A DNA stretch of 32,994 nucleotides, taken from NCBI GenBank assembly GCA_020853615.1, contig JADYYO010000183.1:1-32994 (forward strand), read 5' to 3'. The notes under the pieces were generated by a model. It made no database searches and was not told the origin of the DNA. It saw only the letters and a list, made by a program, of their open reading frames with translations. How positions within the stretch are numbered: position 1 is the first letter of the stretch; the number at the start of each line of letters is the position of its first letter. The DNA is from Thermomicrobiales bacterium (GTDB lineage: Bacteria > Chloroflexota > Chloroflexia > Thermomicrobiales > UBA6265). Of this stretch, positions 25,033 to 32,923 are shown piece by piece. The position numbers were made by a program, and so were the translations under genes.

Positions 25033-25302
25033 TCCCCCCTGCTCCGCTCGCACCGTGCTCGACACGTTATCTCCTGATCTCCGCTGCTGATGTCGACTCG
25101 CGCTGAGTATATCCGTATCGTTCCGGGGCAGGGCACGCGCAAACGAAGCGAACGAGAGGGGTGTGGTAGATTCCTGCCGAACCCCGGCTCCGGCCCTCCC
25201 GGCCGCGAGCATCGCCCGCGCCGACAGGCCACGCTTCCCGAGGATCGTCTCCGGGTGACGCAGGTGATTTCACCGCACAATCGTCGGCCGCCGCGTGGCG
25301 CC

Positions 25303-25959
25303 ATGCTGGTCGCATTCGCTTGCCTCCTCTGTCTGGCCGGGTGCAGCGGCATCTCCGCGCCGTCACCGCGGATCGCCGAAATGGAGCCGACTGTCGTCCC
25401 GACGCCGACGCCGGTTCCGCGCAACCGGCTTGAGTCGGCGCGCGAGCGCTGCGCGGGCGGGCGGTTGCGCGTCGGCGACCTCGCGCTCGCCGGGGACGAG
25501 TGGGCCGCCGGGGTCCAGGCGGCGACCGAGGCCGCGCTCGCCTGGCGGCCCGATGCGCGGCTGGTGATGGTCCGTGTTGGCTGCGCCACGCTGGAGACCG
25601 GCTTTCGCTGGCGGGGGACCTTCTTTTCGCAGGCCGCGCAGTCCTTCTTCTATAGCGATACCGGATCCAGCGAGCCGGCCGAGGTCGACCCGGCCGCGGT
25701 GCCGACGCTGCCGGTCGCGGACGTCGACTTCCGCGGGCTGCACCTCGCCCTGGCGCGCGCCGGCTACGGCGATGACGCCGAGCTGAGCCCGGCCTCCGGG
25801 GCGACGGTCCGCCTCAACGAGCCGGCCGACCCCTTCGGGCCGCCCGGAACGCCGGAGGGGCTGGTCTATCATGTGGCCATCGTCACGAAGGGGAACGTGC
25901 AGGACCTCTTCGTCAGCAGCCCGGACTGGACGATCCATTCCTACCAGGATCGGAGGTAG
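25303..25959 (+). CDS. Hypothetical lipoprotein
   Basis: MLVAFACLLCLAGCSG lipobox; VVPTPTPVPRN linker; ORF runs into the otsB-like gene 3 bp downstream. Confidence 0.75.
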   Translation: MLVAFACLLCLAGCSGISAPSPRIAEMEPTVVPTPTPVPRNRLESARERCAGGRLRVGDLALAGDEWAAGVQAATEAALAWRPDARLVMVRVGCATLETGFRWRGTFFSQAAQSFFYSDTGSSEPAEVDPAAVPTLPVADVDFRGLHLALARAGYGDDAELSPASGATVRLNEPADPFGPPGTPEGLVYHVAIVTKGNVQDLFVSSPDWTIHSYQDRR

Positions 25960-30900: not shown

Positions 30901-31165
30901 TCATGCGGAATCCGGGTTATCACCGCCACATTGCCGCCGCCGACCCTCACCCCCAACCTCTCCCCCTACCGCGGTGGGAGAGGGGGGGTGTTCGCGGGAT
31001 ATCGCGCCAGGACCATACTTCTTATTAGGAATCCAGAAAAATTCATTATATATATATGCCGAGATATCCTGCCAAAAACCTCCCCTCTCCCACCGGAGTG
31101 GGAGAGGGGCTGGGGGTGAGGGTCGGCGGCGGCAATGCGGCGGTGAATATCCGGGTTCCGCGTCA
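30901..31165. mobile_element. MITE-like palindromic element, copy B
   Basis: TIRs tgcggaatccgggttatcaccgccacattgccgccgccgaccctcaccccca / cgcggaacccggatattcaccgccgcattgccgccgccgaccctcaccccca; cccctctcccac-cgga-gtgggagagggg hairpin; AT-rich centre; homologous to 15762-16036. Confidence 0.75.
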
Positions 31166-32236
31166 CTCTGTGCCGTCCGCGAGCAGGTCGAGGGCGTGCT
31201 GGGCGACCCCGTCCACCGAGATATCCGCGACCATCGACGGCTCGTGGCCGCAGGGATGGTTGAGTTCGTCGGCGCCGCAGAGCGGGCAGGAGAGACGCCA
31301 CGAGACGACCGGGCGGTGGCGCGTCCGCGTCAGTGGACCGTAGGTGAACAGATTCCAGCACCAGTAGATGCCGACCGTTCGCGCGCCGACGGCGGCCGCC
31401 AGATGGAGCAGCCCGGTGTCGTTCGAGACGACGACCCGGCAACGCGAGAGGAGCCCGGCCGCGCCGCCGAGCGAGAGCCGGCCGCACGTGTCAATGCTCT
31501 CAGCGCACATCCCCGCGCGCACCGCGTCGGCCAACGCCTGTTCCGGCGCCGTGCCCGTCACCACCACGCGGGCGCCGGCGGCGACCAGGCGATCGCCGAC
31601 AGCGGCGAACTTCTCCGGGGGCCAGCGCCGCTGCTTCGCGGTCGCGCCGGGGTGCAGCACCGCAAGCGGCCGGCCATCGTCCGGCACGAGCGCCGCCGCC
31701 TCGTCCAGATCGGCCGGCAGGAGCGGGATGACCGGCTCGAGCATCACCGGCTGGGCGCCCGCGAGGGCGACGACTTCCAGATAGCGGATGATCTCCGGCT
31801 GGAGCGGCGTGTAGGGAACCCAGCGGTCGAGCGGGGCGGCATCCCTCGTCCGCAGCCCGATCGTATGCCGGGCGCCGAGGCAGAGGAGAAAGGGGTTGGA
31901 GTTGCGCCCGCCGCCATGCATCTGCACGGCGAGGTCGAACCGCTCGCGCCGGGCCTCGGCAAAGAAGGCGTCGAGCGCGGCCGGATCCTCCACGGTCGCC
32001 TCGTCGCCATTGACGCCCCGGCTCGGGGGGACGACGAGGACGCGATCGATCGGCCCCGGCCGGCCGCTGAGAAACGCCGCGTGCCAATCCTTGGCGAGCA
32101 GGACGATCTCGGCCAGGGGATAGGCGGCGCGCAGCGCCTCGAGGGCGGGCAGCGTCACGATGAAGTCGCCGAGCGCGTTGGCGCGCAGGACCGCGATCTT
32201 GCGCACGTCCGGGAATTGCGGGAAAGCCTCCTGCAT
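31163..32236 (-). CDS. Glycosyltransferase family 9 (heptosyltransferase-like) protein
   Basis: KIAVLRANALGDFIVTLPALEALRAAYP, LAVLHPGATAKQRRWPPEKFAAV, VVSNDTGLLHLAAAVGARTVGIYWCWNLFTYGP; Cys-rich C-terminus CPLCGADELNHPCGH. Confidence 0.9.
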   Translation of the reverse strand: MQEAFPQFPDVRKIAVLRANALGDFIVTLPALEALRAAYPLAEIVLLAKDWHAAFLSGRPGPIDRVLVVPPSRGVNGDEATVEDPAALDAFFAEARRERFDLAVQMHGGGRNSNPFLLCLGARHTIGLRTRDAAPLDRWVPYTPLQPEIIRYLEVVALAGAQPVMLEPVIPLLPADLDEAAALVPDDGRPLAVLHPGATAKQRRWPPEKFAAVGDRLVAAGARVVVTGTAPEQALADAVRAGMCAESIDTCGRLSLGGAAGLLSRCRVVVSNDTGLLHLAAAVGARTVGIYWCWNLFTYGPLTRTRHRPVVSWRLSCPLCGADELNHPCGHEPSMVADISVDGVAQHALDLLADGTE

Positions 32237-32239
32237 CGA

Positions 32240-32923
32240 CTAGCGCTCGTCCTCGTCGTCGGACGAGAGACCGCGATCCGAGAGCGAGAGGTCGGCGCCG
32301 AGCGTCTCGCGCAGCGCGCGCTCGACGCGCCCCTGCGTGGCGGCCATGGTGACATCGCCGCGCGTCCGCTCCAGGACCGCGCGCAGGGCGTCGGTCGTGC
32401 GGCGCAGGCCGCCGGTGATGGCGTCGGGGAAATCGACGGTGACGAGCGCGGCGTAGATGTCGTCCATCGCCCCGAGCAGATATTCGGCGCGGGGGAGATC
32501 GTTCTGGCGCAGCCGGTCGAGCGCCTGCCGCCGCAGCTCCGAGGCCGCTTCCGCCATGGCGTTGAGGTAGGCCGCGTCTTCGACGCCAAGCTCGGCCGGT
32601 TCCGGCAGCGGGCGGTCGGCCACGATCGCCAGCGTCATCGCTGCCTCGGCCGCCTCCTTCATCGCATCCTGCACGTAGCCAGCCCAGTAGATGCTCGGGT
32701 AGGGCGCGAGCTCGTTGGCGAGTGTCGTCATCCGCTCGTGCGCCTCGGCCAGGAGCCGTTCCGCCTCGTCCAGCTCGCCGCGGTGCGTGGCGCGCACGCT
32801 GTTGGCGGCGAGGCGGGTGATCTGCCGCCCCTCGCCGAGCGCGCGGTCGCGCATCGACGACAGACCCTCGAAACGGCGAACGATCTCCTCGGCGATGCGT
32901 CCAGCGGGCGAAGCGGTCGCCAT
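32240..32923 (-). CDS. Translin/TRAX-like protein
   Basis: All-helical; SVRATHRGELDEAERLLAEA, GYVQDAMKEAAEAAMTL, DAAYLNAMAEAASELRRQALDRLRQNDLPRAEYLLGAMDDIYAALVTVDFPDAITGGLRRTTDALRAVLERTRGDVTMA resembles archaeal translin-family proteins. Confidence 0.72.
   Translation of the reverse strand: MATASPAGRIAEEIVRRFEGLSSMRDRALGEGRQITRLAANSVRATHRGELDEAERLLAEAHERMTTLANELAPYPSIYWAGYVQDAMKEAAEAAMTLAIVADRPLPEPAELGVEDAAYLNAMAEAASELRRQALDRLRQNDLPRAEYLLGAMDDIYAALVTVDFPDAITGGLRRTTDALRAVLERTRGDVTMAATQGRVERALRETLGADLSLSDRGLSSDDEDER

Follow-up and report, generated by a model that had tools for sequence, protein, structure and literature searches.

Work on translin and TRAX has mostly concerned eukaryotes, where it has dealt with RNAi and tRNA processing, together with two archaeal structures. 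The catalytic residues of human TRAX are E126, E129, D193, and E197 (PMC9753400), and of these translin retains only the equivalent of E197 (PMC9246224). C3PO of Neurospora acts in the removal of pre-tRNA 5' fragments (PMC3834833), and an operon of TRAX with SepRS has been described in archaea (PMC5424206, PMC8762117). A survey of translin-superfamily proteins that included eubacteria, by Gupta et al. (2012, J Mol Evol), is cited in PMC5424206 and PMC8762117; our literature search found no biochemical report on any bacterial member.

Here we describe a TRAX-like gene from a Thermomicrobiales bacterium. It lies in the window, the whole 32,994-nucleotide stretch of DNA that was analyzed, which is one contig of a 4.23 Mb assembly that is ~86% complete. 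The features discussed below are the following:

32240..32923, minus strand: TRAX-like protein of the translin superfamily (227 aa), predicted to be an endoribonuclease subunit (ORF, AfTRAX phmmer, AlphaFold2 model, Foldseek)
32645..32656, minus strand: codons E90-A-A-E93; ExxE portion of the predicted metal site, corresponding to human TRAX E126/E129 (alignment, conservation)
32537..32551, minus strand: codons E125-A-A-S-E129; other half of the predicted site, corresponding to human TRAX D193/E197 (alignment, conservation)
31163..32236, minus strand: GT9 (heptosyltransferase-type) glycosyltransferase, a neighbor outside any conserved unit (PF01075, E=1.2e-30)
31082..31109, minus strand: terminator-like hairpin with a T-rich tail, after GT9 (consensus scan only)

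The TRAX-like ORF is intact, with an ATG start and no internal stops, and its product contains all the peptides quoted in an earlier, sequence-only reading of this DNA (SELRRQALDRLRQNDLPRAEYLLGAMDDIY, GLRRTTDALRAVLERTRGDVT, and KEAAEA). Only 71 nt separate the start of the gene from the end of the window, with the upstream neighbor falling outside it. The closest relatives of the protein, at 86% and 84% identity, come from Chloroflexota/Thermomicrobiales metagenome assemblies.

A single-sequence phmmer search matched the protein to AfTRAX of Archaeoglobus fulgidus (E=5.3e-23) and to NEQ131 of Nanoarchaeum (E=1.5e-6). A profile of the protein matched AfTRAX at E=9.4e-36 and also the solved TRAX chains 3riu_C, 3axj_B, and 3pja_J, while no translin chain was found among the profile matches. 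By these sequence comparisons, the similarity to solved members of the translin superfamily is far beyond chance. The Pfam Translin model PF01997 scored the protein at only 17.2 bits against a curated cut-off of 25.9, and a search of the whole genome (~86% complete) with this model returned zero matches. Since both fold and homology are clear, we read this miss as a limit of the model's sensitivity and its curation threshold rather than as a biological feature. With a score below the cut-off, routine Pfam annotation would overlook the gene.

The NCBIfam models of the PRK14562 group, NF011156 to NF011161, all match the protein, each below its curated cut-off. The best is NF011160 (PRK14562), a near full-length match with E=3.4e-72 and 242 bits against a curated cut-off of 291; in 14 control genomes it found only M. 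jannaschii, S. acidocaldarius, and M. acetivorans, the same three archaea that were found by PF01997. All six models carry the name "haloacid dehalogenase superfamily protein" yet match a translin/TRAX-type protein. Taken at their word, these names would make the protein a haloacid dehalogenase, a reading that we give next to no credence: the Pfam search of the protein found no HAD domain, and its all-helical model matches C3PO and has no Rossmann-like fold. This identity is refuted by the fold comparison, and the name, supported by neither fold nor Pfam, is probably a misannotation across archaea and Chloroflexota.

The AlphaFold2 model, built from an 18-sequence alignment, is all helical, with a mean pLDDT of 93.0 and a pTM of 0.83. 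A comparison with solved structures, proposed in the sequence-only reading as a check on the fold, was run with Foldseek against the PDB. The top 50 matches are all translin, TRAX, or C3PO, and AfC3PO ranks ahead of NeC3PO, which is followed by human TRAX (3pja_J/K/L) before any translin chain appears. The first match, AfC3PO, has an E of 2.7e-8, a TM of 0.76 by query and 0.90 by target, and an rmsd of 1.8 Å. Superpositions of the model on AfC3PO give 1.5-1.9 Å across ~190 residues, and rmsd values of 1.5-1.9 Å hold for every AfC3PO and NeC3PO chain listed except one. In both sequence and fold the protein resembles TRAX more closely than translin, and we therefore place it on the TRAX side; as judged from sequence and predicted structure, it is a real member of the translin superfamily and of the TRAX (catalytic) type. 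The claim that a bacterial genome here encodes a translin/TRAX-like protein is thus borne out by AfTRAX homology, profile match, and fold.

Among characterized systems, AfTRAX/AfC3PO (PDB 3zc0, 3zc1) is the most similar, with 33-36% identity in structural alignment. Apart from its bacterial host, the Thermomicrobiales protein differs from AfTRAX in a short acidic C-terminal tail and in conserved arginines at R44, R48, and R139, which AfTRAX lacks. NEQ131/NeC3PO (5jr9, 5jrc, 5jre) has the same fold (TM 0.89 by target) at only ~18% identity. The TRAX subunit of human and Drosophila C3PO (3pja, 3axj) likewise shares the fold but has ~12-16% identity, and eukaryotic TRAX pairs with translin, a partner for which we detected no separate gene here: the TRAX-like protein has no second homologue in this ~86% complete genome, and PF01997 has no match in it. 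A translin-like partner could be missing from an assembly of this completeness. The absence of a partner does not exclude a C3PO, because the archaeal type is homo-oligomeric.

Homologues were found in 111 of the 201 Chloroflexota genomes sampled, nearly always in single copy; one further observation is a homologue (L017) from an assembly labeled Egibacteraceae. In a FastTree phylogeny of 114 sequences, comprising 112 of the Chloroflexota type and two from archaea, 8 of the 10 families with at least three members were monophyletic, which is consistent with mostly vertical inheritance of the gene within Chloroflexota. A mobile, phage, or plasmid origin was rejected, with zero matches in 50,697 phage records, 72,556 plasmids, and viral contigs, and the gene behaves as a chromosomal gene rather than a mobile or defense gene. 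The bacterial translin-superfamily protein is therefore real but not of a new kind, since such proteins are known in eubacteria, and it is widespread in Chloroflexota.

The GT9 gene is on the minus strand like the TRAX-like gene and, as the sequence-only reading had it, begins 3 nt past its stop codon. This arrangement would allow the two proteins to be operon partners in cell-envelope synthesis or its regulation. The short gap on one strand and the hairpin past GT9, which would end a two-gene transcript, favor such a partnership, as does the lack of any promoter-like match in the region. We nevertheless consider it very improbable. A GT9 relative (E<=1e-10) is present in none of the 112 other TRAX loci, a few of which extend only a short way on one flank. 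What follows the TRAX gene in nine Thermomicrobiales-type relatives is a DUF192 gene in convergent orientation, and in eight of these nothing separates the two; the window has an epimerase, an amidohydrolase, and GT9 between TRAX and DUF192. Because it is not conserved in the 112 other loci, the GT9 adjacency is uninformative on function, and a functional link was rejected on the same ground. The GC-rich palindrome after GT9 (CCCCTCTCCCAC...GTGGGAGAGGGG, window positions 31075-31125) resembles both a terminator and a dispersed repeat.

In the Thermomicrobiales-type relatives, the gene order is TRAX, DUF192, trehalose-phosphatase, an uncharacterized ORF, and cysteinyl-tRNA synthetase (CysRS), with a divergent leucyl-tRNA synthetase and tRNA-Ala upstream. 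The window retains the block from DUF192 to CysRS. An ORF of 289 aa at window positions 25090-25959 has no Pfam match, and it adjoins trehalose-phosphatase in all Thermomicrobiales-type relatives whose loci extend that far. CysRS itself lies ~7 kb from TRAX in the window, against 2-3 kb in these relatives. The archaeal operon with SepRS had suggested a link between the two, but we deemed it incidental, as among the other loci only L072 has CysRS, ~3 kb off.

Elsewhere in the phylum, the surroundings of the gene vary. UbiA is found downstream of TRAX in families f23, f42, and f16. In family f14 and its relatives, TRAX has a thiamine gene on its upstream side and an H+-pyrophosphatase on its downstream side, and RNase HII and UPF0102 are close by; five loci (L044, L047, L095, L116, and L118) carry RNase HII and UPF0102 (YraN-like) on the TRAX strand, ~1-2 kb upstream. 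A genetic interaction between translin and RNase H2 is known from fission yeast (PMC9246224). An alanyl-tRNA synthetase-like gene is directly upstream of TRAX in L018, L064, L080, L088, and others, and in the four named loci it shares 4-11 nt with the start of TRAX. LeuRS, HisRS, or CysRS is found near TRAX in further lineages. Because there is no phylum-wide neighbor, the genomic context names no substrate. The recurrence of tRNA synthetases beside the gene is nonetheless suggestive of a link between TRAX and tRNA metabolism, which, going by these neighborhoods, the TRAX-SepRS operon of archaea, and the Neurospora precedent, we would offer as a guess.

A further type of context is a cluster of SSB, DUF3467, and TRAX with touching genes, found mainly in families f12 and f44. 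DUF3467 is directly upstream of TRAX in 18 loci; in ~15 loci of f12/f44, the three genes are consecutive on one strand and touching or nearly so, as in L043 (7190-8979), L070 (3365-4860), L104, and L112. Our search of open papers found no description of the function of DUF3467.

The sequence-only reading had aligned KEAAEA with the ExxE motif of catalytic TRAX, and this alignment held up: E90 and E93 align with the ExxE pair of both AfTRAX and NEQ131, equivalent to E126/E129 of human TRAX. The site is completed by E125 and E129, which correspond to D193 and E197. A profile alignment placed positions 111-158 on human TRAX 179-226 at equal length, putting 125 on 193 and 129 on 197, although this match is weak (E=0.078). 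All four mapped positions are thus acidic, as in human and Drosophila TRAX, and the E90-x2-E93 and E125-x3-E129 spacings are those of human TRAX. An acidic pair with x3 spacing also occurs at the same place in AfTRAX and NEQ131. Across 113 aligned homologues, E90 and E93 are present in all 112 that cover the site and E129 in all 113, while position 125 is Glu in 112 of 113 and Asp in one. R33, R131, R132, R174, D178, R181, E185, and T187 are also near-invariant.

The sole systematic change among the catalytic positions is therefore clade-wide replacement of Asp by Glu at the D193 site, where AfTRAX and NEQ131 both have Asp. In the RNA-bound AfC3PO entry 3zc0, Ala replaces Asp at the position equivalent to E125, which would fit a mutation introduced to trap RNA. 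Glu at 125, where characterized enzymes have Asp, might change or reduce activity. This substitution is the starting point for the main alternative, in which the protein would be a translin-fold binder of single-stranded DNA or RNA with catalysis lost or much reduced, perhaps working with SSB on single-stranded DNA. The SSB-DUF3467-TRAX cluster fits such a role, and translin binds both ssDNA and ssRNA (PMC3834833). However, all four positions are acidic and almost invariant, whereas translin keeps one of them (PMC9246224); the protein is nearer to TRAX than to translin in sequence and fold; and the SSB cluster is limited to a few families. We regard this alternative as unlikely, if the most serious of those considered.

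With good confidence, we favor instead the reading that the protein is of the catalytic TRAX type and a bacterial counterpart of archaeal C3PO, that is, a homo-oligomeric, metal-dependent endoribonuclease. The translin fold, AfTRAX as nearest solved relative, and the retention of four acidic positions argue for it, while the barrel and the activity are what we infer from them. Because the genome yielded no separate translin partner, we propose a barrel made of one protein: it would form a homo-oligomer as in AfC3PO and NeC3PO, probably a closed octameric barrel, into whose cavity RNA would pass. In each active subunit, E90, E93, E125, and E129 would bind a divalent metal, and these metal-bound acids would cut the RNA endonucleolytically; their predicted position in the cavity is drawn from alignment to AfC3PO and human TRAX. 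Our best guess at the substrate would be small RNA that is structured or single-stranded, pre-tRNA leaders being one example.

More tentatively, and with somewhat less than even confidence, we suggest that Chloroflexota rely on the protein as a housekeeping RNase, a C3PO built from one gene, self-sufficient and with Glu substituted in its metal site, and that in certain lineages this enzyme is coupled either to SSB and DUF3467 or to genes for tRNA synthetases. If so, it would be an enzyme that processes RNA or R-loops in bacteria. The family also presents an annotation problem: it is overlooked by Pfam and labeled a dehalogenase by NCBIfam, which is misleading in Chloroflexota, a phylum much studied for dehalogenation. 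With an active site that is near-invariant across a bacterial phylum, the family offers a simple one-gene system for the ancestral role of C3PO.
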